Assembly (NCBI RefSeq): GCF_025698545.1 | Contig: NC_068576.1 | Location: 50,936,390 to 51,000,389 of the forward strand | Direction: 5' to 3' | Origin: Gossypium raimondii | Lineage: Eukaryota > Streptophyta > Magnoliopsida > Malvales > Malvaceae | Length of the DNA stretch: 64,000 nt | Part shown: positions 13,963-59,488 of the stretch, one piece after another | How the letters are laid out: every line of letters starts with the position of its first letter | How positions within the stretch are numbered: the first letter of the stretch is position 1 | Notes under the pieces: model-generated | Databases searched by the model: none | What the model saw: the letters and a program-made list of their open reading frames with translations, nothing else | Told to the model about the DNA's origin: nothing | Made by a program: the position numbers and the translations under genes

Positions 13963-15483
13963 GGGTTTTTTAATCAAAATATTACAAAAAAATAATAAAA
14001 ACACCAAAATAATATACAAAAAAGATTATTTACCAAAATAATACAAAAAAAAGACGGCTGAATGGAGGGCACATACAGTGCAAAGACTTTCTTTGTTCAG
14101 ATTTCAACCTTTGTTCGTATTTTTTCCCCGAATTTTATTACTTTTAAAAAATATACTAATTTTTAATTTATTATTTTATATTATTTTAGTACATTATGTT
14201 TGAAATGTATTCATTTAGTGTGTTTTTTTATTGAAAGTAATAAAATTCGGGGAAAAATACAAACAAAGGGCCGAAATAAGGGTTTTTTAAATTTATTTAA
14301 AAACACACTAAATGAATACATTTCAAACATAATGTACTAAAATAATGTAAAATAATAAAATTAGAAATTATTATATTTTTTAAAAGTAATAAAATCTGAG
14401 AAAAAAATACAAACAAATGGCTGAAATACGAACATGTTGGTGCCGCCTCTCATGTTGTTAATATGAGGATAAATGCTCAATTTTGTTTTTATTTTAGTTT
14501 TTCAAATATGCTTAGAGTCCTAGAGATACGTGCTATTGTATTACTCTATTATATGTAGCCTTCATTTTTCACCAATAATTTAAAATAATTACAAATTTCT
14601 TTTATCATTAATATTCATTTTACAATTTATATTCAAAATTCATAATTATCTCTTTTAATCATATTATCTTCAATATTTCAGTGTTGTTTCTCGGAAATGC
14701 AATTTACTTCAACTAATGCCACTGAATATTTACTATTACTTCAGCTAAAGGCTTGAACAGAAGTTAAGTCATAATCAACACGTACTGACATTTCTTTAAA
14801 AAAAGTTTTGTTTCGTCACATCAATTTTGAGTTGTTTCTGATAAAAGAATAGGATAAATCACTTAGTTGGTCACCGATTTTTTAAATGTTTTTATTTTGA
14901 TCACCCAAATAATTACAGCTACCACATTCTTCTTCTTCCTTTGCTCCCTAGTTCCAGCTACCACATCCTTTATTGTGTTTTTTAAATAAATTTAAAAAAA
15001 CCCTTATTTCGGCCATTTGTTCGTATTTTTCCCTGGATTTTATTATTTTTAAAAAATATAATATTTTCTATTTTTATTATTTTACATTATTTTAGTACAT
15101 TATGTTTGAAATGTATTCATTTAGTGTGTTTTTTAAATAAATTTTTAAAAAAAACCCTTATTTCGACCCTTTGTTCGTATTTTTCCCGGATTTTATTACT
15201 TTCAATAAAACACACTAAATGAATACATTTTAGGCATAATGTACTAAAATAATATAAAATAATAAATTAGAAAATAGTATATTTTTTAAAAGTAATAAAA
15301 TCCGGGGAAAAAAATACGAACAAAGGGCTGAAATATGAACAAAGAAGTGCCATCTCACCACAGCACCATTGGTGCCGCTGTGATGTGCCCTCCATTCATT
15401 GTCTTTTTTTGTATTATTTTGGTAAATAATATTTTTGTATATTATTTTGGTTTTTTTTTTTTGTAATATTTTGGTAAAAACCC
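13963..15483. mobile_element. Non-autonomous Mutator-like element (MULE) with long inverted ends
   Basis: The element starts GGGTTTTTTAATC and ends GGTAAAAACCC. It is flanked by a perfect 9-bp direct repeat, ATAGATAAA (13954-13962 and 15484-15492), the target size typical of Mutator-like elements. Over 100 bp of terminal inverted repeat is clear: both ends, read inward, carry ACCAAAATAATA blocks and then GAATGGAGGGCACAT. Each end is itself folded: 14099-14266 is inverted against 14285-14430, and 14993-15180 against 15185-15335, sharing AATGAATACATTTCA and its complement. There is no transposase frame; the central 14440-14985 is AT-rich and non-coding. Movement would need a transposase supplied elsewhere. 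Confidence 0.85.
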
Positions 15484-28362: not shown

Positions 28363-31300
28363 ATGCCCAAGATGGAGGCCAGCAGCAGCACCTCCCATGA
28401 CCCGGCATTGTTCCATGCTCCCTTGCTACACCACCCTCGGAGAAGGAGCAGCAGACCCTTAAAGGGTTTCGCAGTGATAATTGGGTCCGTCGTTTTCCTA
28501 CTCTCACTGGTCATATTAATCGTTAACCAAAGCCCGGAGCCATTAGCAAGTAACCCCAGTAGTGTAACGGAGGCAGGGTCGTATTCAATGGCGGCGCAGC
28601 CAAGAGGGATAGCTGAAGGTGTTTCAGCCAAGTCAAACCCATCACTTTTTGACAAAGTTGGGTTTAATTGGACAAACGCTATGTTTTACTGGCAAAGAAC
28701 TGCCTACCACTTTCAGCCTCAAAAGAATTGGATGAATGGTAGGTTACCTAATTACAATTTAAGTTGCTTCTTTTGATTTTCGTCACTAAACCTTTCATTT
28801 TAGTTTACTATTTTTAAACTTAAATATGATTTCCTTTTAATAATCGAATTTAATTTGTTGTCTTTTTCTTATTATGCTTGCACGTTGGTTCGGCAACTTA
28901 CGTATCTTGCTTCAGATCCTGACGGTGAGTTCTCATCATCTAAATTCTTGTTGTTAGTCAACCATTTCATCAATCAATGCGTAAAACACAAAAATATCGA
29001 ATCAGAAAATTGTGACCAACCCAATCTGCCAGTTCTTCCAAATTTGAGCATTTCAACCTTGATTTGCAATTAAAGTTGGCTTCTACATTGAATTGAATCA
29101 CATCTTACCCTTTTTCTTCTACTAGATCCACTTATAAAATTATTTTTCAATACTCATTTAATTAAATTTAAAAAATTTACATAATTTGTTTCATATAAAA
29201 ATTCAATTCTTTAATATATAAAAAATATATATTCTACATCAATAAGATACTAATATCGAATCCACCATTTGTGGTATAATAAATGCAATTATATTACAAA
29301 ATTTTAATAAAATATTAATAGCATAAAATTAATTAATTTAAAAAATATATGATTTTTTAACAGGATTAAATAGGAAAAATATCTTATTAAAAAAATAAAT
29401 ATTAAAAGGAAAAAGACATGATAACCCTTAGTTTACAATCAATGGTTACTTGACCGTATGGTTTGCTTACCTGTCGTTCTAACGTTTAAGTCCTAACTAA
29501 CTAGTTTTGCAAAACCTTGCTTCTGTGCATACACCATGTAATAGCATGTGATTTTTTTAGTAATTATATTAAACTCTAATAGTTTAATTAAAGTAGCACG
29601 TGACATAATGGAACAAAAATACGATGGTCGCAGGTCCGTTATATCACAAGGGATGGTACCATCTTTTCTATCAATACAACCCCGATTCAGCCATATGGGG
29701 CAACATCACTTGGGGCCACGCTGTATCAAAGGACCTCATTCACTGGTTCTATCTTCCACTCGCCATGGTCCCTGATCAATGGTACGATATCAACGGTTGT
29801 TGGACGGGGTCGGCCACTCTCCTGCCAGATGGCCGAATCGTAATGCTTTACACCGGCAGCACCAATGACTCCGTGCAAGTCCAAAACCTTGCATATCCCG
29901 CCAACCTATCTGATCCCCTCCTCCTTCAGTGGTTAAAATACCCGGGTAACCCGGTTGTTGTTCCCCCAACCGGGATCGAAGACGAAGAGTTCCGAGACCC
30001 GACAACAGCTTGGCTTGGACCCGATGGTTCCTGGCGGATTGCTGTTGGTACAAGGTTTAATACCACCATAGGAACAGCCCTTGTTTTTCAAACGACAAAC
30101 TTTTCTGACTATGAATTATTGGATGGGGTCTTACATGCTGTTCCGGGTACGGGTATGTGGGAATGTGTAGATTTTTACCCCGTTGCAATAAACGGGTCGG
30201 TCGGACTGGACACGACGGCACTTGGGCCTGGAATTAAGCATGTCCTGAAGGCTAGTTTGGATGATACGAAAGTTGATCATTATGCAATAGGGACCTACGA
30301 CATGATAACGGATAAATGGACACCTGATAACCCGGAAGAAGATGTAGGCATCGGGTTGAAAGTGGATTATGGGAGATACTATGCCTCCAAGACATTTTTT
30401 GATCAGAGTAAACAAAGGAGGATTCTTTATGGTTGGGTTAATGAAACTGATTCTGAAGCTGATGACCTCGAAAAAGGATGGGCTTCCATTCAGGTAAATT
30501 ACATACATACATACATACATTACCACTACGAGTACTACAACATACATAACATACTTTTCTACACGATCGTATTTTGTTTTCGTAATTTACAGACAATTCC
30601 CAGGAGTGTGTTGTATGACAACAAGACCGGAACCCATTTACTACAGTGGCCTGTGGAAGAAGTGGAGAGCTTGAGACTGAATGCTACAGTGTTTAAGGAT
30701 GTTGTAGTTGAAGCAGGATCAGTTGTGCCCCTCGACATAGGCACCGCTACTCAGGTTTTGTAACTTTACCACCTCTAATAACGACTCACCCCACCAGCAC
30801 TAATTTATACTGACAACATAAAATTATTAAATGCAGTTGGATATATTAGCAGAGTTTGAAATAGAGACGTTGGTATTGAACAGCACGGAGGATGAAGTCA
30901 GTGATTGCGGTGATGGGGCGGTTGATAGGAGCACTTACGGGCCATTTGGGGTCCTGGTTATTGCTGATGATTCACTTTCTGAGCTCACTCCTATATATTT
31001 CCGTCCACTTAATACATCCGATGGGAGTCTTGAAACTTACTTTTGCGCTGACGAAACAAGGTTTGCTTTGTTCTACATATGTATCTAATTGCGAGTTTCA
31101 GTTAACAAGTGAAAGAACAATATATAAATGGTTTGATGCAGGTCTTCTAAAGCTCCCGATGTCACGAAACGAGTGTATGGAGGCAAAATTCCAGTCCTTG
31201 ACGATGAAAACTACAATATGAGGGTATTGGTAAGTCATAAATAATGTTGTCTGCTTGAAGATATGATTTTGGTGAAATTACAAAAAATGTATGCTACTAG

Positions 31301-31589: not shown

Positions 31590-32784
31590 TTATCATTTGG
31601 GAAGGGTGGATGCCCCCAGTCTACAAAACATATTAGTATTATGTTTTCAGTGCATAATTTTTTTTATTTGTTGGGCATATCCATTCATTTTGTTTTGTCG
31701 CCTGGTATTTGGTTGAGAATAAATCGATAAAATTTTGAGATTCTTATATTTTTCGTCTTTACCTTACCTAATAATATAGGAGATTACCTAATAATATACG
31801 AAAAAAGGGATTTTATGATATTATGATTTCACATCATCTTTTATATCTTTTAATAGGAGAATGATAAATTAGATTTTTCTCTTGATTTTAAATTTTTTCC
31901 TTCTAAAAAGTTCAAATCTAACTAAAATCGCATTAACTTAAGATTAATATCCAATTAACCCAAGAAAACAATAAAAGATCGTCACTACTTATAACTACAT
32001 GATAAGAATTACGGACATCAAATCCTAAAAAAAAAAAGTATCATAGAGGCCTTATATTAATCTGTACACATTAGATTAAAAGTAAATTAGTTTTATTAAA
32101 ATTCCATCCATTTCTACTATTAAAATTTAGTCATTGTATGTCAAAGATAAAGTACACATAGCACATTAGGTGTCACTGTTTAGTTATTCGTTAGCTATTC
32201 TAATTTTTAACAGAGAAATAGATAAAATTTTAACAAAATGACCAATTTGCTCATTAAACTAATGTACAAAACTAATTTATTCATTTTTTTAATACAAGAA
32301 CAAAATGCAATTTGACTCTTAATACAAAAGCTTTCATGGTATTTTTACCAATCAACATTAGTTCATCTATCTTTAATTAAGCAACAACGAGTAGACATAT
32401 TTCTTTATGAGCATTCATGCATTCACAACCAACAAGGCTTTCATTATTAAGCAATTGATAGTTTTGAATATTAACAGTACACAATTTATACCAATCAACC
32501 CTTAAAGTTATTCTGTAACAGTTAAAGCCAGATACTCTACTACTTGCATGTTACCTATGTTAGGAACCTTCCACACCATTATTGTACAAATCAAATGTTT
32601 TTTTTAGAGGATGTACAAATCAAATGTTGATATATAATGGTAGCCAAAAAAATCTCTGTAACCACATCCACAAGCCCCACACTGATTTGCTTTTAAGGCC
32701 CTCCGGCACAAAAGCTTTACCAATCAAATTTCTTGAGGTGAGCTTTCCACCTTTAACTATTTACCACTAGCAGACAAGTCTATA
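31590..32784. other. Intergenic space between convergent genes
   Basis: It holds the 3' UTRs of the invertase (left) and the PPR gene (right), which converge. AT-rich, with a tandem 'ACCTAATAATATA' repeat at about 31765-31800. A 19-nt stretch around TGTACAAATCAAATGTT is repeated at about 32582-32628. No gene seen. Confidence 0.45.
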
Positions 32785-34353
32785 CTATAATCCTCTATCC
32801 AACATCAATTTTCTAACTCTTTCCGCATCCTCCACCCTCCCTGCATTGCTATATATCTTCATCAATAACTCAAAATTATGTTGGTTATCCGGCTCCAGCT
32901 CGAAAAGTTTTTGACCTGCAATCTCTCCTATTTGTATGTTTCCATGAACCGAACAGGCATACAGCATTGCTCCCCACACGGTTGGCCCTGCCTCAAACTC
33001 CATTCTCTCCACTATCATGTTGAAAGCCTCATCTATCAGCCCTGCTCTCCCGTAAAGATTTATCATGCAAGCGTAGTGCTCCATTCTTGGATCAATCCCG
33101 TACTTCTTTCTCATCAACCAAAACAGCCGCTCTCCGTCCTTAACCAAACCTAAATGAGCACAAGCCGATAGTATTGCTACAAACGTGATGCTATCAGGTG
33201 AAGTACAGCTCCTCACCATCTGTTCGAAGTACAGCAGAGCGTCTGGGTTTTTACTATGACCAGAGATTATTGAATTCCATGACACAATATCCCGCTCGGG
33301 CATTCGTTGAAACAACCAACTTGCTCCATCTAACTTGCCAAGATTAGAATACACAACGATCATAGCATTAACGACAGATGTATTCCACTCAATTCCTCGC
33401 CGGAGAACCCATCCGTGTATCTGTGCCGCAGTCTTCAATGAACAAAAACTAGACAGAATAGTGGATATAGTAACAGAGTCAGGCTCAAATCCCTCTTGAA
33501 TCATCCCACGGAATACCTGCAATGCCCCAGCCAATAACCCCTGACGAATATAACCCGTCAACATGGAATTCCAAGAAATGTTATCCTTACAAGCAATGCT
33601 ATCAAAAACCCGCCTAGCCTTAACTATGTCTCCACATTTTGCGTACATATCAATAAGAGCATTAAGCACAAACAAGTCATTTCCAAAACCCTTACGCACC
33701 ACATCGCGGTGAACAGCCTGCCCAACATGAATCGACCCAATTCCCGCGCAAGCCTTCAATGCGCGAGGAAATGTGAATCGATCAGGTTCAACACCCTCTT
33801 CCTCCATTTGAAAGTAAAGGGCTAAGGCATCTTCATATTGTCCCAGTTCTGCGTATCCTGAGATAAGAGAATTCCAGGGAAAAGCGTACTCGTTTCGTTT
33901 AGACATTTGATCAAACACTTGATGGGCACTTTCCATGCGTCCAGCCGTAGCATACAGCCTTAACAGTTTTGAAGAGATGCCCGTGTTTTTACGTAATAAG
34001 TTCTGGGGAACAAGACGATGAATTGCGATGCCGTGGTCGATGGATTTTAGTTGGTAACATGTTTCTAACAGAGAAGAGAATATCTCTGAATCTATTATTA
34101 TGCCTTTTTTGACAGAGGCTTCGAGGTCTTTAACGATAGAGTCTACGGCTTGGAGTTTAGTTTGGGGGAAGGGTTTGTTGTTGATAAAGAGTGGGGTTGG
34201 CGAGGATCTTGGGAATGGGAGGGCAGGGGCAGTGTTTTTATTATGCTCAAACTGTCTTCGCTTTTGCTTCTGGTTCTTCTTGCCTTTAGAAGAGCAGTGA
34301 AAATGGAGAGTCAATGGTATAGCGTGTGGCTGCGCTTGTAAAAGAGCAACCAT
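32785..34353 (-). CDS. OTP70-like chloroplast PPR protein (522 aa)
   Basis: This intronless minus-strand frame runs from ATG at 34353; in-frame codons before it contain no ATG. The 522-aa product has a basic, Ser/Pro-rich presequence (about residues 1-60), then KPFPQTKLQAVDSIVKDLE and a run of PLS-class pentatricopeptide repeats. Blocks such as PWNSLISGYAELGQYEDAL, VLNALIDMYAKCGDIVKA and SWNSMLTGYIRQGLL repeat at about 35-residue spacing, ending in an E-type tail (YGRAGLIDEAF, GPTVWGAMLYAC, LFELEPDN). No DYW domain is present. The sequence closely follows Arabidopsis At4g25270 (OTP70), which is needed for splicing of the plastid rpoC1 intron; the function here is inferred from that. It lies head-to-tail with the kinase gene to its right, the same neighbour as in Arabidopsis (At4g25280). 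Confidence 0.92.
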   Translation of the reverse strand: MVALLQAQPHAIPLTLHFHCSSKGKKNQKQKRRQFEHNKNTAPALPFPRSSPTPLFINNKPFPQTKLQAVDSIVKDLEASVKKGIIIDSEIFSSLLETCYQLKSIDHGIAIHRLVPQNLLRKNTGISSKLLRLYATAGRMESAHQVFDQMSKRNEYAFPWNSLISGYAELGQYEDALALYFQMEEEGVEPDRFTFPRALKACAGIGSIHVGQAVHRDVVRKGFGNDLFVLNALIDMYAKCGDIVKARRVFDSIACKDNISWNSMLTGYIRQGLLAGALQVFRGMIQEGFEPDSVTISTILSSFCSLKTAAQIHGWVLRRGIEWNTSVVNAMIVVYSNLGKLDGASWLFQRMPERDIVSWNSIISGHSKNPDALLYFEQMVRSCTSPDSITFVAILSACAHLGLVKDGERLFWLMRKKYGIDPRMEHYACMINLYGRAGLIDEAFNMIVERMEFEAGPTVWGAMLYACSVHGNIQIGEIAGQKLFELEPDNQHNFELLMKIYSNAGRVEDAERVRKLMLDRGL

Positions 34354-35116
34354 TTTCAGAGAACGAAGACCGTTATTAGCAACACCCAAAGTCCCGATAA
34401 GAATTTTTACGCATGCAGTGGTTTTTAAAGTCTTTATTTACAATTTGGACCCTGAATTATACATTTTCTTTATATTGGTACTTAATAAACTTTGTTTTGT
34501 CCACTTTCACAATTGAACCATCATTTTCATCCCAATTTACCCAAAAAAAACAAAGTTGGCAATAAAAACATGACTTACGTCCACGTTAATAACTTTTAGA
34601 GTAAAATAGGAGGAAAATTATAATTCAGGTACTAAAGTGAAAAACGAAAAGTTTACATTCCAACGTGAAAAAACAACTACATTTCAAGAGCCTCTTGAAA
34701 TCATGAATAAAGCCATTTTTAAATCATAGAACAACTTTGAAAACCTAATTGAGATAGACTACCGCAAGAGGGGGTTTGATTTATTCTGCACTTGAAAGCT
34801 TCAATAAGTATTGAAGCTCATATATTTATTTGCATGTTATTTAAGTAAACTGAGCTTTAAGGTAGCAATCGTTCAAACTATCATGTATATATGAAAGTAA
34901 TGAAAAGCATCTGTTTTCAAGACATTATTTTAGTACATCATGGGCACCCTTCCTTTTTTTACCTCAACCAGATTTACATCCTTCTTTTCTTTTCATTTCC
35001 TCATCTTGCTAGAAACTTTTGAAGGTCCTGTGACCCTCAGCTGGCCTTGACTTTGCCCTAAAAACAAGGTAAAAAGGATACTCCTGTTTTTGTGATGCTC
35101 TTGTTTCACAAGAATC
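34354..35116. other. Intergenic space between PPR and kinase genes
   Basis: It contains the PPR promoter and the 3' UTR of the kinase, both on the minus strand. No frame or repeat worth naming is seen. Confidence 0.45.
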
Positions 35117-38215
<3,099 letters not shown>

Positions 38216-39762: not shown

Positions 39763-41997
39763 TTTCTTTTTTTTTTTAATGAGTAAAGGAGGGGAGACCC
39801 TAAGCACTCAAGCCCTAATCCACAGATGGAATTCTGATGGGGCGAATTCTGGGAACACGCGAGGCGTCATCATCGAAGACCTGCTTTAATAACTCTGGGC
39901 ATTCCTCCAATGTTTGGAGGCCTCTGATATTGACATCAGCCATACGAGCTGGACCATCCGCAAGCATGTTTTCCTCTCTAGTTCCATGAGAAAAAGTAAC
40001 ACGCCAATCACGATTGATAAGCTCCATAATATTCTGGAATAGACGGTTGGCCTGACGAAACTTAGATCTTCCAGTAATGCTACGGATGATGTCAGAATTA
40101 TCACTCACAACCTCCAATCTACGGAAACCTTGGTTCCAAGCAAGGACCAAACCATCATATAAGGCCCAAAGCTCCGACATGAAAACAGAGCTAATACCCA
40201 CATAATGATGAAAACCGATAATCCATGCACCATTCTCACTACGGATAACACCTCCAGCTTTCCCAAGCCTTGTTGCCGAATCCCAAGCACCGTCAACGTT
40301 GAGTTTCCTCCAATCCCTTGCAGGGGGTTGCCATCGGAAAACTCTCTGCTCAGTCCTTGTCATCTGGTGACGCCGGATAGGCCCTCCTACATCTGCATGT
40401 CTTGCCCAAGACAAACTAGATTCATATATGCCCCAAGATTCCTGCGTAACATCATTAAAAACAAAATCATTTCTTTGTTTCCAAGCAAACCAACACACTA
40501 TACTAAAAATGGTGTTCCAATTAAAAGTTTCATTGTTGAATTTGCTATTCTTATTGATATTAGCTAAGAACCAATTAACAAAGTCATAAGCAAAGAAGAC
40601 TTCCTGATTATCCGGCGGTATAAGCCGTTTCCACACCAAAATAATCGCCTTACAATCACGGAGGATGTGGAGTATACTCTCCTGAGGAGCATGACATATC
40701 TAGCACAATTCATCCTTTGTCAAAGTCCTCCGTTTCCTCTCCACGTTAGTTAAGAGTTTTTCCTTACATACCAGCCAAAGAAAACTCCTAACACGCTGCG
40801 GGCACTTTAGAGTCCAAATCTGCTGCCAAACCGGATCCTTATCGTCCCAAGTAGATTCCATCCTCCTAGCGTAAGCCTCAGAGATAGTCAGGACCCCATC
40901 TTTCGCCCCTTTCCAAGCTATGGAATCCGCACCTGCAAAAGGATTAGGCGGGCAGACATTTGAAATATAAAGGAGGCCAAATGAGAGAGATACATATCAA
41001 GCCTACGCCAGTCCCACTCATAATTTTGGTTAATGGCATCCACAACTTTCCACACATGAGGAATCATGACTTCGGGTTTTTTATGTTGCACAAGGGGGCC
41101 CAGCTCAGGGATCCAGTTAGCATACCAAAAACTCGTCTCCTTCCCATCACCAATGGTAGGATAGATGTCAGGGCGAAGATCATCCCAAATTTTGGCGAGG
41201 GATCGCCAGAAGAAAGAAGCGCTACCCTTAATCACACTATCCGGAATTATATCACCAACATGATACTTCTCTCTAAGGATTCTAACCCACAAATCATTTC
41301 TATTAGCTAGAACGCAAAACCCTAGCTTCGAGAGGAACGATTTGTTATAATCCTTCAGACGACGGAACCCCAGACCCCCATTGCTTAAAGGCTGACAAAC
41401 AGACTTCTATTTAACCAGAGAAGTCTTAGCATCTCCATCTTTCGTTCCCCAAATGAATCGCCGAATAAGTTTCTCAATTTCCTTTATGATGCTGACAGGA
41501 AGCATAGCAGTTTGCATAATGTAGTTTGGGATAGCTGCAACCACCGACTTGGCCAGAGTAATGCGCCCCGCAAGGGAGAGAGAATTAGCATTCCACCCTG
41601 AAAGTTTACTTCTGACCCTATCAATTAAAAATTGGAAAGTCGCATTCGTGACTCTCTCATGGAACAAAGGCATTCCCAAATAAAGACCAAGATCATCCAC
41701 TTTAGAGAAACCCAGCCTGTTACTAATAGCAGAAGCCACCTTCGATCTCGTATTAGGAGAAAAGTAAATATGCGTCTTAGAAGCATTAACCTTATGACCT
41801 GAGGCTATACAAAAGCGATCAAGGATATCCGCAATCACCTCCGCTTGACCAACCTTCGCCTGGCAGAAAAGGATAAGATCATCAGTAAAGAAAAGATGAG
41901 ATAACGGAGTGCCATTCTTAGTAAGCACAATAGGTTCCCAGCTTCCACCCGCAACGGCTTGCAAAATACTGTGACCAAGTCTTTCCATTCCTAACAC
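39763..41997 (-). mobile_element. 5'-truncated LINE with reverse transcriptase end, zf-RVT and RNase H
   Basis: On the minus strand the element opens inside the reverse transcriptase (41997-41407: PLSHLFFTDDLILFCQA, with FTDD replacing the usual YADD, then the LGLYLGMPL and SLAGRITLAKSVVAAIP blocks). It continues through a zf-RVT region (about 41300-40650) and ends with an RNase H domain (40639-39815: LNVDGAW, SELWALYDGL, VVSDNSDII, LADGPARM). A poly-A tail (plus-strand T-run at about 39763-39779) closes it. A 17-bp target duplication, ATATCTTGATTTTATTT, lies at 39746-39762 and 41998-42014. A TAG after 'TSLVK', another after 'DELC', and at least one frameshift make it inactive. The 5' half is missing, as usual for target-primed insertion. 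Confidence 0.9.
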
Positions 41998-42014
41998 ATA
42001 TCTTGATTTTATTT

Positions 42015-42390
42015 GATTCCAATGAATTTGATTTGATTTTATTCAAATTATTTTAAATGCTCATTAAATGCAAATTTTGTATCTTTATTCATGGAATTTT
42101 TCAAAATTCCACCATATTGAATGTCTATAAAAGCTTAAAGAATTCTTCAGAATTTTTTACACACACAACAAATTTATTTTACTCTTGAAAATTCTTCTCT
42201 TTTTTCTCTCCATATTTTCCAACGTTTCAGTGATACAATAAAGTAAGGTCTGTTTGTTGATCACTGCAGAAGTGTTATTGCTTCGATTATCTTGTTGTTG
42301 TATCCTAAGAGACAGTCGACCAACGTTTCTCCAAGTATCATAAGAGCAGTCAAATTTGTCTTAAGGAAACTATGTAAAACATGTCTTAAT
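42015..42390 (+). mobile_element. Possible LTR-element fossil, terminal repeat edge
   Basis: A TATA-like TCTATAAAAG at about 42122, a leader-like tract, and then a junction-like 'CCAAGTATCATAAGAGC' at about 42334-42350 resemble the end of an LTR followed by a Met-tRNA primer site. No coding part or second repeat is seen, so this is at best a small old remnant. The LINE at 39763-41997 inserted at its left side. Confidence 0.3.
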
Positions 42391-46459: not shown

Positions 46460-47068
46460 TGTCACGGACTTAGAGTTTTCCCACGGATCCGTGTGGCCTT
46501 AGGCAGTTTCTTTGCTTAAAAACGCCTAAGTCAGCCTAACTTGCAGTGATAAAGGATTCAACAGTAAAAACGCCTAAGTCAGCTTAACTCGCAACGATAA
46601 AGGATTCAACATAATTCCCTTAAGGTTTCCACGAAGAACAGCAGAAGAACGAAGTAAGAACGAGCCTTGAAAGATGAACAAAAGCAAGAACACTTGAGAG
46701 AAAAGTTTGAGTGAATACTCTAAAAATTCTTATTAACAACTGAATGAATTACAATGAGTAAAGAGGTCTCTATTTATAGTTGAGCCTCCCTAAAATCAAC
46801 GGTGTAAATCACAGTACATCAATGGCTACAATTAAAAGCTGTATACAATTAGAACTCTAAGCTTACATAATCAGCTATATAAAATTAGAATTATAAGATT
46901 CCATAATTATATCTTCTAGATCACTTCACATTTTTACCGGGCTCTTAAGATGGGCTTTTAATCTCTCTAGGCACCGGGCCAGTTTGGTTGGGCCAAATGA
47001 CCTCCCTCGAATACGATGGATCGCACAAGTTTTTCATGGTTGCGTGCTCCCATGCGTAACCCATGGCA
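46460..47068 (-). repeat. 3' LTR of the chromovirus
   Basis: 609 bp, starting TGTCACGG and ending CATGGCA in plus orientation. It is preceded (inside the element) by a purine-rich tract, seen on the minus strand as AAGTGGGGGAGAA at 47069-47081. Confidence 0.9.
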
Positions 47069-50000
47069 TTCTCCCCCACTTGTTCTAGCGACACCCTCGT
47101 CGCATCCTCCTTATGGAACTGGTCAATCTTCCCTTGGAACTGCCACAATGCCTCGGCAGGTTCCCAACTTGCTTCGCTATCAGGAAGTCCTTTCCATCGA
47201 ACTAAGTATTCATGCCGTGGTCAGTGGTACTTTTGTCTAATTACCCGATCTGCATTAATGTTCTCGACTTCACGATCATACGACACCTTTACCCCCATCG
47301 GTGCTCGTTCGGACTTGCAGCGATTCAGATCCTCTTGATCCTCATGAAATGGCTTAAGCATGCTTACATGGAAGACTGGGTGGACTTTAAGTTTTGCTGG
47401 CAACTCAAGCTTGTAGGCCACCTTACCTACTCTCTTCACAACTTTGAACGACCCTTCATACCTTCGCACAAGACCCTTGTGCAAACCAGTATATTGTAAA
47501 ATTAAATGTAGTTTAGCAAGGACTGAGTCACCCATTTCAAATTGTACATCCCTTCGGTTCTGATCGGCCCACTTCTTGCTACGCTTACTTGCCTTGTGTA
47601 AACAAGCTCTAGCCAAGTCATTCTTCTCTTGCCAATCTTTTGCGAATCGATAGGCTGCTGGATTTGGTCCTGTATAATGGGTCACAACAGCGTTGGGTGT
47701 GAGTGGCTGTTAACCCGTCACTATTTCAAATGGACTTTGATTCGTCGCCCCACTTCTCTGTAAGTTGTATAAAAATTGGGCCACATCCAATAACTTTGGC
47801 CAATCTCTTTGTGTGGCACTCACATAGTGTCGAAGGTACGTCTCCAACAATACATTTACTCGTTCAGTTTGCCCATCAGTTTGTGGATGCATGCTCGTGG
47901 AGAAATTCAAATCTGAGCCCATTGACTTGACCAACTCCGTCCAGAACTAGCCCGTAAATCGCCCATCTCGATCACTGATAATAGACAGTGGCACTCCCCA
48001 ATATTTCACCACATGTTTAAAGACCAACAGAGCTGCTTCCCCAGCAGGGCACTCCTTGGTAGCCGGAATAAATGTTGCATATTTTAAAAACCTGTCCACC
48101 ACAACAAGAATACTCGCAAACCCGTCAGACTTAGGCAAACCAATAATAAAATCCATGGATAAACTCTCTCATGGCCTTTCCGGAACTGGCAAGGGTTGAA
48201 GCAAACCGGCTGGAGTCTTTAACTCAACATTGTCTTGTTGGCACACTAGACAAGTTTTCACATAGGTTTCTACATCAGCGCTCATGTGAGGCCAGTAATA
48301 ACGATCCTCCAAAAGTGCCAGCGTGCGATGCATCCCTGGATGGCCTGCCCATTCGAGTCATGACATTCCTTCATGACTTCCTTGCGGAGTTTCCCATAAT
48401 GGGGCACATAGAGGCGGTGCCCATGAGTATATAACAGCTCCCCATCAAGCCAAAATCTTCTCGTTTTTCCTTCTTTGGCAAGCTCAATCAAATTTTTGGC
48501 CGTGAGATCACGGGACAATCCCTCTCGAATGCGTTCCAACAAAGAACCCTCAGGTTGACTAATTGCTGCAAATTCCATCTTTCGACTGAGTGCATCAGCC
48601 GCAATGTTAGCACTTCCTGGTTTATACTCCACTGTAAAATGAAACTCCGCTAGTAAAACCTGCCAATGAGCTTGCTTGGGAGACAACTTTTTTTGGGTTA
48701 GAAAGTAACTATTGGAGACATTATCGGTAAGGGCCACGAACCTGGAACCCAATAAATAGTGTCTCTATATACGCAAGCAGTGTACTACCGCAGTCATCTC
48801 TTTCTCTTGGACCGTATATCTACGCTCCGTCTCATTAAGCTTTCGACTCTCGAAAGTAATTGGGTGTCCATCTTGTATCAGTACTCCCCCAATAGCATAA
48901 TCTGATGCATCCGTGCGTACCTCATACGGCTTCGCAAAATCTGGCAAGGCAAGTACTGGTTCCCTCGTCATTTCTTGCTTCAATTGATTGAAGGCTTTCT
49001 CACATTCTGGATTCCAATCCCATACCTTCCCCTTTTTCAACATGTCTGTCAAGGGAGTGGTAATTCTGGAGTAGCCTTCGACAAAGCGTCGATAGTAATT
49101 TGCCAACCCAAGGAAGGATCTCAACTCTGTTACCTTGGTTGGAGGCTCCCACTCTGAAATGGCTCGAACCTTGCTCTTATCTATTTGGATCTTACCACCT
49201 CTTACAATGTGGCCTAGGAATGACACCTCTTGTTGGGCAAATGAGCATTTCTCCTCCTTGATGAACAGCTTATTTTCCCTCAAAGTTTGGAACACCTCCC
49301 TCAAGTGTCCTATGTACTCTTCAAGAGACTTGTTATACACTACAATATCGTCAAGGTAAACAACCACAAAACGATCAAGAAAGGGTTGAAGTACCTGATT
49401 CATTAGGGTGAAGAATGTAGCTGGGGCATTCATGAGTCCGAAAGGTATCACAAGGAACTCATATGAACCGTACCGTGTCACACAAGCTGTCTTTGGTTCG
49501 TCCCCCTCGGCTATCCGAACTTGGTGATACCCCGATCTCAAATCTAACTTGGTAAACCATCTTACACTACCAAGCTGATCAAACAAATCTGTAATAAGAG
49601 GAATAGGGTACCTATTTTTCATAGTGATCTTGTTTAGAGCTCGATAATCGATGCACATTCTCAAGAACCCATCATGTTTCTTTTGGAACAACACTGGCGC
49701 ACCATATGGGGATTTAGATGGTCTAATGAATCTCGCATCCAAAAGGTCCTTCAATTGTTTCCGTAACTCTTCTAATTTTGGCGGAAACATACAATAGGGG
49801 GCTCTTGCTGGCGGCACCACATTGGACATTAACTCGATTTTGTGGTCCACCTCCCTCTTGGGTGGCAAACTTTTAGGCAACTGTGCAGGCATTACATCTC
49901 GGAATGATTGTAACAATTGACCCACTTCTTTCGGGGTTTCACTAACAGACTCAGTGGTCACTTCGATCTTCAAGGTGGCTAAATATGAAACTTCATTTCT

Positions 50001-52327
50001 ACGTACACCTTTAGCAAACTGAATTGCTGACAGTGTTTTTCCCTCAAAGCTTCTTTTTCTTATCACTTTCACCATGCATTGATGTTTTGCGTCTGAAATC
50101 ATCATATAATTGCTCGAAGGGGCAATAAGAGCATTAACCTGATCAAGGAAACTTAGTCCCACCATAAAATCATAATCATCAAGTGGTATTACCTTAATGG
50201 ATACCTTCCCGGACCATTTGCCGAGTTGAAGATCCACTCCCTTTGCAACCCTCTTAATTGGAACACTTTCTGAGTTCACTGTTTTGATCCAACCCACTTT
50301 ATTTTCTATCTTTAGGCCTAGTTTACAAGCAGCCTCCTCGGATATGAACAAATCAGAAGCGTCTATGTCAACGAGCGCATTCAATTTTCTGTCAGCCACA
50401 ACGATGTCTACAAACATCAAACCAGGGCTCATTCTATCTTCGACACCCCCTAGTATCGAACCAAGATTGTTATCCTCCACATCGGACTCCCCATTTACTT
50501 CCATGGCAATGAGAGCGGCCTTCTTTGGGCAGTCCTTGATCATATGAGGACCATCACAGTGAAAGCAACTTATAGGCCCACTTTCTCTTGTCCCAAGGTT
50601 TCTTACCATTCCCGTTCCTAGTGGGCCTTTCTTTATCTCCCCCACTATTACCCTTTTGATTAAATCTGGGCTTAGAAGAATTGGGATTATCTTTCTTCCC
50701 ACCAAATTCAGCAAGCGATTCTGCTACTGACATAGCCTTGGTGAGTTCTTGAACTCTTCGGCGCTGTAACTCTTGCTTCGCCCACGGTTTTAATCCATCC
50801 ATGAAGGAAAAGAATGCCTCTTTCTCCCCCATATCTGAGATTTGGAGCATAAGCTCGCTAAACTCCTACACATACTCCCTCACAGTACCTTGTTACGCAA
50901 GCCGACGCAACTTTGCCCGAGCCTCATCCTCGGCATACTCTGGGTAAAATTGTACTTTGAACTCACATCGAAACTCTTCCTATGTTTCGATTTCGGTCCC
51001 ACCACGTCTCACATCAGTGGACCTACGACGCCACCACAACAAAGCAACGTCAGATAAATACATTGCAGTAGTAGTTACCTTAGTGACATCCTCCGTGATG
51101 CCTTTGGCACAGAAGTATTGCTCGATTCCCCACAAAAAGTTGTCCACATCTCTTGCGGACCTTATTCCCTTAAACTCCTTGGGCTTGAGAACACTAATAT
51201 TGGGCTTGGGAACACCAATATTGGGCTTGGGTGCGACAGCTGCTAACCCACCATTGCCCAAAACAACCTTGTAGATTGTGAGTTCACCCTTGAGCTCCGC
51301 AATCTCTCCCTTCAAGGCCGCCACCATAGCCTCAATGGCATCATCTCTACCAGTCAACTGTTCCACATTATCTGTCACATACACTTTGAGCTGCTCCTGC
51401 ATGGACTGCAATCCATCATGGAGCCTATCGTCGACATAATCAATCCTCTCCTTGATATCCCCCGCGAAATTTTCGAGAGTGACGACACGATCCTCTAAAG
51501 CTGACAATATGTCCCTCGAGCGACTAACTTTCCTTGCCCTCCCACAAGTCTCCATTCCCTCACATATCTGAGATTTGGAGCATAAGCTCGCTAAACTCCT
51601 GCACATACTCCCTCACAGTACCTTGTTACGCAAGCCGACGTAACTTTGCCCGAGCCTCATCCTCGGCATACTCTGAGTAAAACTGTGCTTTGAACTCACA
51701 TCGAAACTCCTCCTATGTTTCGATTTCGGTCCCACCACGTCTCACATCAGTAGACCTACGATGCCACCACAACAAAGCAACATCAGATAAATACATTGCA
51801 GCAGTAGTTACCTTAGTGACATCCTCTGTGATGCCTTTGGCACAGAAGTATTGCTCGATTCCCCATAAAAAGTTGTCCACATCTCTTGCGGACCTTGTTC
51901 CCTTGAACTCCTTAGGCTTGGGAACATCAATATTGGGCTTGGGTGCGACAACTGCTAACCCACCATTGCCCAAAACAACCTTGTAGATTATGAGTTCACC
52001 CTTGAGCTCCGCAATCTCTCCCTTCAAGGCCGCCACCATAGCCTCAATGGTATCATCTCTACTAGTCAACTGTTCCACATTATCTGTCACATACACTTTG
52101 AGCTGCTCCTGCATGGACTGCAATCCATCATGGAACCTATCGTCGACATCATCAATCCTCTCCTTGATATCCCCCGCGAAATTTTCGAGAGTGACGACAC
52201 GATCCTCTAAAGCTGACAATATGTCCCTCGAGCGACTAGCTTTCCTTGCCCTCACACAGGTCTCCATTCCCTCAACTTCTTTCGACATCTTTCAACGATA
52301 GCTATGAACCTTAGCTCGGATACCAAC

Positions 52328-52935
52328 TGTCACGGACTTAGAGTTTTCCCACGGATCCGTGCGGCCTTAGGCAGTTTCTTTGCTTAAAAACGCCTAAGTC
52401 AGCCTAACTTGCAGTGATAAAGGATTCAACAGTAAAAACGCCTAAGTCAGCTTAACTCGCAACGATAAAGGATTCAACATAATTCCCTTAAGGTTTCCAT
52501 GAAGAACAGCTGAAGAACGAAGTAAGAACGAGCCTTGAAAAATGAACAAAAGCAAGAACACTTGAGAGAAAAGTTTGAGTGAATACTCTCAAAATTCTTA
52601 TTAACAACTGAATGAATTACAATGAGCAAAGAGGTCTCTATTTATAGTTGAGCCTCCCTAAAATCAACGGTGTAAATCACAGTACATTAATGGCTACAAT
52701 TAAAAGCTGTATACAATTAGAACTCTAAGCTTACATAATCAGCTATATACAATTAGAATTATAAGATTCCATAATTATATCTTCTAGATCACTTCCCTTT
52801 TTACCGGGCTCTTGAGATGGGCTTTTAATCTCTCTAGGCACCGGGCCAGTTTGGTTGGGCCAAATGACCTCCCTTGAATACAATGGATCACACAAGTTTG
52901 TCATGGTTGCGTGCTCCCATGCGCAACCCATGACA
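52328..52935 (-). repeat. 5' LTR of the chromovirus
   Basis: 608 bp, starting TGTCACGG and ending CATGACA in plus orientation. The primer site just inside reads, on the minus strand, TTGGTATCCGAGCT (about 52312-52326), close to the initiator Met-tRNA complement used by many plant gypsy elements. Confidence 0.9.
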
Positions 52936-53455
52936 CATGCATTGATTCGTTAGGTTGTCTATGACCATTTTTTTTGTTTAAAGGAAGCAAGGTATATAAT
53001 TATTATTTTTATTAATTATTCCATATAACATAAATAAGTAGAATTCTTTAGAAGTTGAGATATCTATAATGTAATATAAATATTGGTGGTACCATATGAA
53101 CTTCAAATGAGAAAGAGGAAAGTAGGATCAAATTCTTTCATTATTACACCAATAAACCTTATTATTTACGAGCATGGACAAACAATGGTTATCTATAGAA
53201 AATACAAACATCATTATGATTTTACAATTGCAGAAATCCCAGAGATATAAAATAAATAGTAAGATAAGAAATAATAATGCAGTCCTCCTCCTGAATTAAA
53301 CTAAAACATGGTAAACCAACCTAATGAATGTTATATTAGGACAAAACATTGAGTTTTAGGTGTGCAATAAAGATAGGATAATTATTTGGTTCATTCAGCT
53401 TTTTATTGCATAACCTAAGAAAAAGCTTATGCACACTGAATTAATGAAATATAAT
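52936..53455. other. Intergenic, downstream of the putative lncRNA
   Basis: No gene frame. AATAAA on the minus strand at about 53402-53407 and 53462-53467 could end a minus-strand transcript. Confidence 0.4.
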
Positions 53456-53638
53456 GCAAGTTTTATTACATTAACCACTTTCCACACATTTCTTACATTC
53501 TTTATGCTAATAAAACATGGTAAATTGGACAAAGAATATAATAAAAGAAAGGCAGGATGGGTAGGTAGAGGAGGCTAAACTGTGAACTCATTAAAGAGAG
53601 GGATAAAAACAGATAATCAATTATTTAATACATGTGGG

Positions 53639-53663
53639 TCGGACCAGGAGTGCTTGATTCCCC
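53639..53663 (-). promoter_or_regulatory. Bulged miR166-complementary site (endogenous target mimic candidate)
   Basis: In plus orientation the site reads TCGGACCAGG, then AGTG, then CTTGATTCCCC. miR166 is UCGGACCAGG plus CUUCAUUCCCC. On a minus-strand RNA, miRNA positions 1-10 pair perfectly and positions 11-21 pair with a single C:C mismatch (position 14). Four unpaired bases lie exactly between positions 10 and 11, where cleavage would occur. That is the design of an endogenous target mimic, though the classic bulge has three bases. No complementary arm lies nearby, so it is not a MIR166 hairpin. Confidence 0.65.
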
Positions 53664-54097
53664 TTTGCATGGATGAATGATATTGATCACCAATATTCCA
53701 TGTTCAAACAAATATTGCAACCTTCTTCACTGAACAAACAGTTGGCTCTCGTTCTTATAAACGAAACAGAAACTTAACCTGAAATCCTGCATGGATGCAA
53801 CCCGCAAGAATGATGATGAGAACTGAAAAACACCCATTTGATTATAGGGAGTTTACATGCTAGAAAGTATGATTAAGATGATGATGAAGAAACCAGAGAA
53901 AAGTATAAATAGGGATAGGTAAAGGGGGGGGGGGGGAGGTAAAGCTTTTGAGGTGAGTGGGCGAGGCCTGAAATATGATTTGCCGTGCAACAGCACCACT
54001 GCTGTGCTGTAGAGTTGAGGAAGCTTAGTGTAGACGTATGTAGAAAGGCTAATCTTAGATTCCCGCATGCACACGCATGTGCACGTTACTCTTTTAC

Positions 54098-54211
54098 TCA
54101 TGACTCAAATTGTGGGGGGCATTCTTTTGTTTTGATATTCCCACTATATCCACAAATTAAGAAAAAGAAAACACAGACAGTGAAAAGTAATATTGGCTTC
54201 TTAATTTTCAT
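54098..54211 (-). CDS. Possible small secreted peptide frame (37 aa)
   Basis: ATG at 54211 opens MKIKKPILLFTVCVFFFLIC, a good signal-peptide shape (basic start, long hydrophobic core, small residue after), followed by GYSGNIKTKECPPQFES and a stop at 54098. There is no known family match. It lies near the 5' end of the putative lncRNA, so it may be a short non-conserved frame of that RNA or the first exon of an unrecognised gene. Low support. Confidence 0.22.
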   Translation of the reverse strand: MKIKKPILLFTVCVFFFLICGYSGNIKTKECPPQFES

Positions 54212-54295
54212 GTTTTGCTGAATAAATCCACTTAAGTTTACAAATTGTGTTGCCGATGACCTTAAAGATACATGCACTCTGTTTAATGCCAATGG

Positions 54296-54303
54296 TATTT
54301 ATA
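54296..54303 (-). promoter_or_regulatory. TATA box for the putative minus-strand lncRNA
   Basis: On the minus strand CACATATAAATACC contains TATAAATA, about 640 nt upstream of the bulged miR166 site. A separate TATA-like TATAAATAG on the plus strand at about 53904 points the other way. Confidence 0.4.
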
Positions 54304-55043
54304 TGTGATTCACATGATTATAACTAAGCATACCATAATTCATATATATATTTTTGTTGATTATATATAACTAATCATTTCAAGGGGTCTTTTTAAGAGA
54401 AAAAGAAAATTGTATACAGGTTAGTTGGCAGTGGGCACGCCGGGGACAAAGGGGAGGTGGACGTTACAATCTTGGCGTGGAAGAGAGTGGGTCCAATTGT
54501 AACTGACAGGACAGGACAGAACAGAACAGTACAGGAGATGGCGTTAAGAATAAGCATTTTATTTATTGTTTTCTAAGGATTGCCTCTCCTCAGCTCCCCT
54601 ATTTTTGTCTTAATTTGCATGTATGCATGAATGTCAATGTTATCCCAATCCAACCAAGTTTAGAGTTGTAGCACAACCTCACCCGTACTATTTTAATATA
54701 TATATATACAACCAATAAAATAAAATAAAAAATCATAAATGAACGTGCCCGTCTGTAGCCAAATTCTGATATAAAAATTACTAAATGCAAAGGGTATCCA
54801 AAATTTATGGGGTGCCATTTAGGCCAGTGCGTACTACAAAGCATACACACTAATGATGATGGAAATAAATATTATAAATAAATAACAAGGTTTCTTCCCA
54901 ATTTATTTTCCTGCAATCGAGAATCTCAATCAGAAGAGGTAGAAAATTTGTTAGCTTTTCAACCATGGAAATGAAGCTTCGAGGAAAGCTGAGGAAAACT
55001 TGAATAATTGAAATTGGCAGCAAAAGTGAAGGTGAGAGTAAAA
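54304..55043. other. Intergenic space and 3' UTR of the PIRL gene
   Basis: The right part is the likely 3' UTR of the LRR gene. A repeated 'GGACAGGACAGAACAGAACAG' motif is at about 54508-54532. No gene seen. Confidence 0.4.
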
Positions 55044-57901
55044 TCATCGCTCCTCGTCCAGAATAGGGTCCGTAGGACCAGCAGTTCCAAGGTACCCTGA
55101 TACAGTCTCACCAACCACTGAAACAGAGCGCTTCAACCAAGTTGTACTGCGTGTCAACCACCCATTCTCTTCCTCTTCATTTACTTCTATCATGCTCTTT
55201 CTTTCTTCCTCCGCAAGCTTGTCGGCCCACCTCTTTGCCATGAAAAGCTTCACTGCATCAACCCCTTGCTCTACTACTTCCAGAGGAGGAATGACAAGAG
55301 GATTTTGTTCCAAATTCAGTTTCTTCAGGTTGTCAAGCCTGCCAAATGTATCAGGAAGAGCCTGGATTTGGTTGTTACTGAGATCAAGCTCTTTAAGGTT
55401 GGTTAATTCACCAAGCGTCTCAGGAAGTTCTGTTAGATCAGAGAAATTGCTGCACACATTGAGGACCTCGAGATTTGTCAATCTCCCGATTTCATTCGGA
55501 AGTCCACGAAGTTCATTGAAGTGGGCATCCAGAAAACGCAATGACCTCATCTTACAAATAGAATTTGGTAGGGATCGGAGCTTGTTCAAATAAATTGAAA
55601 GCCTTTCTAGATTTCCTAATTCATTCCCAAGATTAGTTGGCAAGTATGCCAGGGAGTTAAAGCTCAAATCCAACTCCACCAAAGACCTGAATTGATGAAA
55701 ATCATATTTTAGGACGAATAATGACCAAAAACAATTTTTTTTTTATAATAATAAAACTAAAATTACCTGCAGTAACAAATGGAATCAGGTAAGGCATTCA
55801 GTTTATTTCCCGAGACATCCAAGATTTTCAAGTTCTGAAGCAATCCAATAGAGTCTGGAAGAGATTCCAGAAGATTCGAGGAAACATTTAGCTCCTCGAG
55901 TTTTTCTAATCCAGCAAGTGAGTCAGGAATAACCTGTATCAACATGCAGGTATAGTCAGATGAAAGACAAAATCTTAAAAGGCTCAAGATCCAGATTTAA
56001 TAAGCCTATACAAGCACCAGTAAATTGCTAACTTATCACTTTTAATTACAGAAACAAGAAAACAGAGACAATCTTACACATCATTGAAGTTAATTTTTAT
56101 CTGACAAACATGTCTGAATTAAGTTTTCTTTCTTTTTTTGGTAACGAAACAAGCATACAAATTCCACTATGGGGGAACGGGAAGAGAGCTTACACCTCTG
56201 TCACCAAAAATCACTATCTACCCAACGATTTTCGAGTTGGTACATACATTCCCTACCGGGGAACACGAGTGATCTAATTCAGCAAAACTAACGATCCCAT
56301 TAGCTTATAGTTTATTACATAATTATTGAGTAAAACAAACAATTCAAAAACTTCGGAATTTATTTACTTACAATTACATGTTTATATAAGCACAAAAACT
56401 ATATATATAAGATCCAAAAAAATGTTTCATCTTACAATTAATTGTATTTCATTCCTGCTAAATAAACCGGAGAAGGCTACCCCTGTCGAATTACGTTTTA
56501 TAAAAGTAGCACATTGTGTTTTAGTTTTCATTTCTCATACCCAACCGATCAGTGTTCTAGGTAACAAAGGTTTACAAAAAGGGTTAGAACCTGGAACATG
56601 AAGCCAACAGACTTAGAACCCAGTCTGAGTCGAGTTCAAAGTTTCATCTCTAATGTCTACAGACTAATTGTCAAAACAAAAAAGTGTAGGATTGTTTCCT
56701 AAGAATACTGGATTCACAAGTCCAGATGATTTTTTACAAGGGACATGAACTAAAGTGTATATATCATGAGAAATAGAAGGCGATATAACACTTATGCCAG
56801 GATGCAACCTATTCACAGCATCAACAACAACATATGAACAATATATTAGGGAAACTGCAAAATAGAAACTACATAGTTCTTACACCATTGTAGTTCACTG
56901 ATCACTAAATAACCCCATCAGCATTGTAAGCACTACCAATTCATAGTACCAGGAGCTGACATGTTATGGCCATTCCTTAAAAACAATGTTATCAACTTTG
57001 TTTCCTTCTAAGTGAAAACAAATATCTAAAAATGACTGATTGTGATGCTGATTATGTTACTTTTGGGTTCACTCTTCAATTCATCCACAGCCTTATCCAA
57101 TCACTTTCTAAATTCAAATAACTATGATTGCAACAGCAAGATTAAGAGAAAACATACCTCAAACTGATTACCGGAAAGATTAAGGGAAAGCAAGCCGCTA
57201 ATCTTCCCAAAGGCTTCGGGCAAATACCTGAGCTTCCTTCCACACAAATCAACCCTTTCCAATCCTTTGCCTTGCGCTTCCTCCAGTATCCCAACAACCT
57301 CCGGATTGGTCTCCTCAACTGGCTCCGAATCGTCCGCCACTTCTCCCGCCTTCTCATAAATCTTAACCAACCTCTCCTCGGCTTGCTTCACGAGCTTCCC
57401 GTACGCCTCGTGCATTTCGTCCAATTGCAGTATCGACTTGCACATAGATTTTTCCTGCTCAGCTTGTTGTCGAATCTGTTGCTCTTTGTCGGCCAAGTTG
57501 GCACGCCATTCGGCTTGATCCACACCCTCGGGTCGAGGAGAGAGGACGAGTTCTTCCAGGGATTTGGAGAGGTTGGAATCGATCTCGGCGAGCTTGTGGT
57601 GAGCCATGTCGACGGACTCGTGGTCGGGTCGGGGGCCGAGGGTTTGGAGGACAGAGCGGGTTTGGGCGACGTCGTAGATGGCATGGGTCATGGAAGCGAG
57701 GACTTTGGGATGGGAAAGGTGGGGCATCTGGTCGACTATTGGTGGCGGAGCAGTGGAGGAAGAGGCGGCGTCGATAGGCGGTGGTTGTTCGAGGTCGAAG
57801 GGGGTATCAGAGGAGGGTGAGGACTGGAGCCTGGATGAGATGGAAGGAAGGCGGGACAAAACATAGGAGAGGAGCGGGTAGCTTTTCAGGTTTGGATCCA
57901 T
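55044..57901 (-). CDS. Plant intracellular Ras-group-related LRR protein, PIRL1/PIRL9 type (517 aa)
   Basis: Three exons on the minus strand: 57901-57158, 55933-55767, 55686-55044. The 517-aa product has a long N-terminal helical, coiled-coil region (about residues 60-215; [20 protein letters not shown], then [16 protein letters not shown] and EEMHEAYG-like blocks). About ten leucine-rich repeats of the L-x-x-L-P type follow (about 222-445: [38 protein letters not shown]), and a C-terminal tail with [11 protein letters not shown]. This is the architecture of PIRLs, plant relatives of animal SHOC2/Sur-8 Ras-binding LRR proteins. Arabidopsis PIRL1 and PIRL9 are redundantly needed for pollen development; that role is transferred. 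The in-frame stretch upstream of 57901 has no ATG, so [19 protein letters not shown] is the start, as in PIRL1/9. Intron 1 (1.2 kb) holds no recognised element. Confidence 0.93.
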
Positions 57902-59488
57902 TTTCAGGGCCGGAGGATTTCCAATGCTGATTCTGGTTTTCCAAAGCTTTTTACAAGCTTTACGGTAGAGATTGGAGGAGATTCCCAAGGTTTCACTTTT
58001 CAGCTGGTTGTTTTGTGGCTTTCGGTTAGTATTATTATAAATGTTAAAATGTGATCAGGTCCCTCCACTTTTTGTACATTTAAAATTTAGTCCATTTCCT
58101 TTTATTTTAAAGAATTTAAACTTTCTGGTTTTCTTTTCATGTTTAAAATTGTAAATGCAATTATTAAAAAATTAGAATTATTCTATTAAATTCAAATACA
58201 TTATAACATTTTTAGTTGTTATATAAATGCTAAGTAAAGATTTTTTTAATTTCAAATGTCAATAGAATAATTTCAACAATATTAACAATTTGACCTAACT
58301 TTTAAAATTTTCAAAAATAAGTAAATAAATTCCTAAAAAATAAATTTAAAATATAAAAATTTAAAATTTAAAGCATATTTTAACATATTTTCAATATATT
58401 AATTACATATGATTAAATAAAATGGGTTTGCCTCTTATTATTGGTTTAATCACAATATAATCATTATTTAATTTTAGTAATAACAATTAGTTTATTAAAA
58501 TAATTATACTCTATAAAATGATTGTTTAAAATATAAATATTTTACTATCAATTATTGTTTAAAATGCTTTTCCATCCAATTTAATTTATTAAAATAAATG
58601 AATGAAAACAATAATACCTTCTCCTTACCTTTTTAAGCAAATGCCTTTCCTTCGTTTATTTTATTGTAAAAGTAAATGTTTTTTTGTGAAAGTAAATGTC
58701 TATCTTTTATTAAGATAGTTAATATTGCACCGGTAATTATATTTTACTGGAAATTTATTGATATTTCTGAAAAATCTTAATATTTTTATATAAAATATTT
58801 ACAAATATCAAATGAATTATATTACATAAATTTTCAATATAAAACATTGATGCACAGATGAATGCTTAATGTTCCACTTTTTTTCACTCAAATATTTAAT
58901 TTTAACTAAATTAAGTTGGGAAATATTTAGGTTTTTGAGGTAGATGATATGACCAAATTGAACTAAACTAAAGAATCAAAAGATCCAATACTTAAACCAA
59001 AATTTTTAATAATTTATTGGATAAGAATGGATAACCTAATCAATTTCCTTTCGGGATGCTGAGATGTGCTGTTATAAAAAAGAATTTGACTACTTGAGGG
59101 AGATGAACAAACTGAGAATAGAAGATAAAAGCAAAAATACTTCGTTGCAAACAATCACCAATCTCCCTGCTTGTTTCTGTTTCTATAATTAATACCCTTC
59201 TTCAAATTACAAACATCTTTTTCCTCTTCATAGTTAAACAAACAATAACTACTCACCATGTTCATCACAATTCTTGTAAACCCTAAAAGAGAAGAAAAAA
59301 ACAGAGTGAAACACTCTTCCCTTTTCTCTTTCTTCCTCCTATCAAAACTTTCTTTTAGCCAGAAATGGTACAGAAGATCGTTTGTGGCAGTTGTTGCCTC
59401 CTCGAGTTTCATTCACTTTCAACATTAATCTATCCTGCACGCTATTTTGTTGATTATTTGATCGATTGATGCCACCGAGTCTTACAAC
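57902..59488. other. Intergenic space between PIRL and MAK16
   Basis: The left part is the PIRL promoter and leader; the right part (from about 59100) is the MAK16 3' UTR. The middle is AT-rich with no gene. A minus-strand 85-aa frame at 59155-59412 lies in the UTR and looks non-coding. Confidence 0.45.

Follow-up and report, generated by a model that had tools for sequence, protein, structure and literature searches.

Bulged mimics hold a miRNA-loaded Argonaute without being sliced. IPS1 of Arabidopsis, the mimic for miR399, pairs nearly perfectly on both sides of a central target insertion, as does the site described here for cotton; it differs in leaving three bases unpaired instead of four and in serving another miRNA, and the cotton site is a candidate at the sequence level. 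FRILAIR of strawberry is named a noncanonical target mimic in the title of PMC8011760; going by that title, it would share with the cotton site a departure from the strict rule.

For miR166 itself, the natural mimics ath-eTM-166-1 of Arabidopsis and slylnc0195 of tomato have been described (PMC4683531). Both concern the same miRNA family as the cotton site, and a central bulge is stated for ath-eTM-166-1 (PMC4683531). They differ from the cotton site in having been tested by over-expression (PMC4683531), while ours is a sequence-level observation. For Citrus sinensis, a review table lists csi-eTM166 as acting on csi-miR166c (PMC8215657), and the likeness to the cotton site is one of miRNA family. 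According to the first-pass annotation, functional miR166 mimics had been reported in Arabidopsis and rice; the Arabidopsis part stands (PMC4683531), whereas for rice the accessible sections of the literature yielded no tested miR166 mimic and name this species with eTM160.

Artificial mimics are relevant as well. MIM165/166 plants have rounder, cup-shaped leaves (PMC2908682), and an artificial MIM165 worked poorly as a decoy before its flanking sequence was altered (PMC6508833); good pairing alone is therefore no guarantee of a working decoy. In cotton, lncRNA mimics have been named for miR399, miR156e and several gra-miRNAs (PMC5785843), and for miR171 and miR399 (PMC6888562). In the former source, stu-miR166d-5p is predicted to cleave lnc_174 (PMC5785843); the latter links TCONS_00327889 to gra-miR166d within a regulatory network and does not class it as a mimic (PMC6888562). 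PeTMbase is stated to cover 11 species, cotton not among them (PMC5148581). Among the matches listed for the literature on miR166 mimics and cotton lncRNAs, no report of a cotton miR166 mimic was found. We tentatively propose, at somewhat less than an even chance, that the intergenic Gossypium locus considered below may carry a working natural miR166 target mimic.

Geometry of the bulged miR166 site

The window, i.e., the whole stretch of 64,000 nucleotides that was analysed, contains on its minus strand at 53663-53639 the sequence GGGGAATCAAGCACTCCTGGTCCGA, read from the window sequence and divisible as GGGGAATCAAG-CACT-CCTGGTCCGA. Aligned with miR166 (UCGGACCAGGCUUCAUUCCCC), it leaves four target bases unpaired at the centre, and its parts are the following.

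53639..53663, minus strand: bulged miR166 pairing site, 20 of the 21 miRNA bases paired, 4 target bases unpaired
53639..53648, minus strand: seed-side half CCTGGTCCGA, pairing with miR166 positions 1-10; sole exact copy in the window
53649..53652, minus strand: four-base bulge CACT; in the alternative register, ACTC at 53648-53651
53653..53663, minus strand: other half GGGGAATCAAG, pairing with miR166 positions 11-21 save 14; sole exact copy in the window

Positions 1-10 of the miRNA are all paired, and so are positions 11-21 with the exception of a C:C mismatch at position 14. Since the bulge is bordered by a C at each end, it can be placed in two equally good registers, CACT between positions 10 and 11 or ACTC between 9 and 10. 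The pairing scan puts the break after position 9, and the minimum-energy duplex likewise bulges between 9 and 10. The first-pass description of a miR166 site with a four-base central gap, perfect pairing at positions 1-10 and one mismatch (position 14) is confirmed by this reading, with the qualification that the register is ambiguous (10/11 or 9/10).

The computed energy of the duplex between the site and miR166 is -30.8 kcal/mol. This is near the value for an IPS1-type duplex with miR399 (-33.7 kcal/mol); an HD-ZIP III-type target gives -37.7 kcal/mol, both comparison duplexes being built from assumed sequences. The mature sequence of ghr-miR166a,b is identical to the miR166 used here (PMC11276106). 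We consider the site, its geometry and the identity of the cotton miR166 to be established.

The bulge of four bases, in place of the usual three, had been named as the main caveat, and this objection falls. When Ivashuta et al. 2011 compared decoys in a reporter assay, activity was greatest with one to four inserted bases, smaller with five, and low with six or seven (PMC3121747); therefore, a four-base bulge is inside the working range. The artificial decoys 1B-4B of that series, the most active ones, likewise carry 1-4 inserted bases, and they differ from the cotton site in being synthetic, made for miRMON1 and placed in a reporter 3' UTR (PMC3121747). The idea of a natural decoy with a bulge of other than three bases is not new, since 324 natural Arabidopsis decoy sites with 1-5 base bulges or central mismatches were predicted (PMC3121747). 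Elsewhere it is stated that a mimic needs a bulge, a single central mismatch being insufficient; bulge length was not varied in the mimic work as presented in the accessible sections of that source (PMC2908682). Our literature search on bulge length gave no relevant report of natural mimics with a four-base bulge. That a natural cotton miR166 decoy works with a bulge of this size seems to us rather unlikely.

Wu et al. 2013 is said to be the main eTM paper, and its rules are quoted here from PMC5148581. The eTM rules of PeTMbase ask for perfect pairing at positions 2-8, three unpaired bases between 9 and 12, and no more than three mismatches outside the bulge (PMC5148581). The site pairs perfectly at positions 2-8 and has one mismatch outside the bulge (position 14), but it has four unpaired bases where the rule has three, and it would therefore be left out of catalogues built on this rule. 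The rules of Ivashuta et al. 2011 allow 1-5 inserted bases at miRNA bases 10-11 and no other bulge, with at most two mismatches in a row and three in all (PMC3121747). The site, with its one mismatch, agrees with them in the 10/11 register, and the minimum-energy duplex prefers the equivalent 9/10 one.

Rarity, chance and the possible transcript

Both strands of the window were scanned with 33 query sequences, which we take to be those of conserved plant miRNAs, allowing a central bulge of 0-8 bases and a penalty of no more than 4 (mismatch 1, G:U 0.5), with perfect pairing required at positions 2-8. The scan gave nine rows. Two of them are the site under discussion (miR166 with penalty 1, miR165 with penalty 2), and the remaining seven have penalties from 3.0 to 4.0; no further miRNA sites were found near the locus by this 33-miRNA scan at a penalty of 4 or less. 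When miR166 was replaced by 1500 shuffled versions (half of them dinucleotide-preserving, half not; bulge 1-5), none reached penalty 1 in the window, and the best value, 3.0, was reached by 5 of the 1500.

For miR166, an order-2 Markov model derived from the window (bulge 1-5, break after position 9-11, penalty not above 1) predicts 5.2e-6 sites per window (0.06 per 0.75 Gb); for 32 miRNA sequences taken together, the sum amounts to 1.0e-3 per window (11.9 per 0.75 Gb). Wider limits (bulge 1-8, break after 8-12) raise the miR166 figure to 1.4e-5 per window, which corresponds to 0.16 sites in 0.75 Gb or 0.37 in 1.7 Gb, both genome sizes being round figures. We consider the rarity of the site to be established too: when a single window and a single miRNA are considered, chance would hardly produce such a site, whereas a search of a whole genome with many miRNAs could well do so. 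Chance is thus a poor explanation for miR166 in this window, but it has to be taken seriously where the most striking match is picked out of many windows and miRNAs.

The alternative that survives best is a chance resemblance in intergenic DNA, the minus strand being untranscribed or transcribed too weakly to matter; we give it close to an even chance. The roughly 12 such sites per 0.75 Gb expected over the 32 miRNA sequences speak in its favour, as does the fact that the site was picked for its striking look, with selection among many windows possible. The expectation for miR166 alone (0.06 per 0.75 Gb, 5e-6 per window) argues against it, together with the shuffled versions, 0 of 1500 of which match as well. 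The signals that a minus-strand RNA could use also bear on this alternative.

54296..54303, minus strand: motif TATAAATA, a weak putative transcript start for an RNA of ~0.85 kb
53904..53911, minus strand: motif TATTTATA, a weak putative start of a shorter RNA of ~0.47 kb
53402..53407 and 53462-53467, minus strand: AATAAA motifs, possible poly(A) signals

TATA-like octamers occur eight times in 1.7 kb of the minus strand, some of them overlapping. The bases of TATTTATA at 53911 (minus strand) also form a plus-strand TATAAATA at 53904, which faces away from the site. An A+T-rich stretch such as this one abounds in TATA-like and AATAAA motifs, which favours chance, and the hint of a transcript is therefore weak. 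The motifs would weakly permit the lncRNA of ~0.8 kb over the site that the first-pass annotation had supposed; a shorter transcript from TATTTATA at 53911 would be equally possible.

Folding of an assumed transcript 54270-53400 predicts that the 8-mers of the seed half are unpaired with a probability of ~0.01 vs a transcript median of 0.06; this predicted closure of the seed half speaks against the decoy reading. The best 8-mer of the whole site is predicted to be unpaired with a probability of 0.21, which is the 74th percentile of the assumed transcript. In-silico accessibility has been called unreliable (PMC6508833).

Neighbouring genes and the remaining alternatives

The minus strand also holds, upstream of the site, a small reading frame with a relative in another cotton species.

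53853..54101, minus strand: 82-codon ORF; no ATG-started ORF within 53200-54400 is longer

Along its whole length, the product shares 95% identity with an 83-aa hypothetical protein annotated in Gossypium anomalum, the one relative obtained at E <=1 among 3 candidates drawn from 5.8 billion proteins. Three substitutions and a single indel separate the two over 82 residues; these are too few to judge constraint, and the relative is therefore no support for a constrained gene; the divergence is proportionally above that of the LRR neighbour described below. The relative does mean that the locus is not unique to the studied genome, and the protein is annotated there on the same strand. An upstream minus-strand ORF that is protein-annotated in G. 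anomalum may be counted for the decoy reading.

Several details of these frames can be recorded separately. Thirteen consecutive G of the plus strand (53924-53936) lie inside the 82-codon minus-strand ORF, where they encode prolines, and the indel and a substitution of the G. anomalum protein are near this run. The 37-codon minus-strand ORF at 54098-54211 has a signal-peptide-like hydrophobic start (MKIKKPILLFTVCVFFFLI...), and its stop codon shares bases with the start codon of the 82-codon frame.

Farther upstream, the minus strand carries a gene for a plant intracellular Ras-group-related LRR protein, with reading frames at 57122-58054 and 55044-55742. Across ~80% of the frame 57122-58054, its product is 98% identical to protein clusters that carry the names of G. 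arboreum and G. australe. The miR166 site is 1.4 kb beyond the end of this gene, and AATAAA occurs in between, at 54567 and 54563 on the minus strand; judging by these motifs, the LRR transcript could end there, before the site.

The site could thus be pictured in the 3' untranslated part of an mRNA, either one for a small protein or a read-through product; a decoy would be possible there, but it would not be a dedicated lncRNA. We find this improbable. The annotated G. anomalum relative of the 82-codon ORF, the hydrophobic N-terminus of the 37-codon ORF ending at 54098 and the same-strand LRR gene ending near 55044, 1.4 kb upstream, are all in agreement with such an mRNA, and decoys do function in 3' UTRs (PMC3121747). 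However, Pfam gave no match above its cut-off for the nine small reading frames (NTF3_N was far below it, E 0.86), the 82-aa product has only the one relative at E <=1, and AATAAA at 54567/54563 could stop the LRR transcript ahead of the site.

A decayed MIR166 locus on the plus strand, where the same bases read as a miR166-like 21-mer split by four bases (TCGGACCAGG-AGTG-CTTGATTCCCC), is very hard to credit: the flanks within ~300 bases pair no better than shuffled ones (60 shuffles each; upstream -10.3 vs a shuffle mean of -16.3, downstream -19.7 vs -19.3), the three Rfam matches at E <=5 in 53200-54700 belong to other families, and the window is without a miR166 match at three mismatches or fewer. 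The Rfam matches across the window and around the site are all to other families, none to MIR166. A MIR166 precursor was rejected, no hairpin with an opposing star arm being found within ~300 bases.

A fragment of an HD-ZIP III gene is not supported either. The bases of the site agree more closely with the complement of the miRNA (CCGA, GGGGAAT) than with the assumed HD-ZIP III coding sequence, and a copied fragment of a target gene is therefore unlikely; the sole AAGCCTGG in the window is on the plus strand at 36682, far from the site.

On the other side of the site, the minus strand carries an LTR retrotransposon at 46460-52935 with reverse transcriptase, RNase H and aspartyl protease; its LTRs (46460-47068 and 52328-52935) are 97% identical, and the element is ~0.7 kb from the miR166 site. 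The site as a part of this element was rejected, since the element ends at 52935, ~0.7 kb off. The gag part of the element has a tandem duplication of ~0.74 kb (50822-51562 and 51555-52274, 93% alike). Each outer flank of the element carries CATG, a possible 4-bp target duplication.

Elsewhere in the window, 32093-32236 of the minus strand matches the MIR7502 precursor of Rfam with 78.4 bits (cut-off 71); a GH32 frame (29609-30763) lies on one side of this match and a PPR frame (32785-34437) on the other. Inverted and direct repeats at 13963-15483, with the main pairs 85% and 80% alike, are as in a small non-autonomous element. Non-LTR-like remains are found at 39815-42042 on the minus strand, with an RNase H-like frame (RVT_3) and a piece of reverse transcriptase below the Pfam cut-off.

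Proposed action of the candidate decoy and its possible significance

In plants, miR166 sets HD-ZIP III levels and, through them, leaf polarity, vasculature and meristem fate. A decoy mechanism at the cotton site is plausible, judging by the pairing. We infer transcription of the locus, binding of miR166, resistance to cleavage and an effect of the locus as its steps. A minus-strand RNA, non-coding or with short ORFs only, would offer the site for pairing with AGO-bound miR166. Both miRNA segments, 1-10 and 11-21, would pair with the site RNA, and the scissile position, where four target bases are unpaired, would be protected from slicing by Argonaute. The RNA would then sequester miR166, and a mild rise in HD-ZIP III transcripts might follow where the RNA is expressed.

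If this proposal is true, a Gossypium-wide search allowing bulges of 1-5 bases would find more decoys, and the locus would be a test of whether the three-base rule for cataloguing natural mimics is too narrow. A natural miR166 buffer in cotton, if true, would provide a handle on leaf polarity, vasculature and meristem traits.
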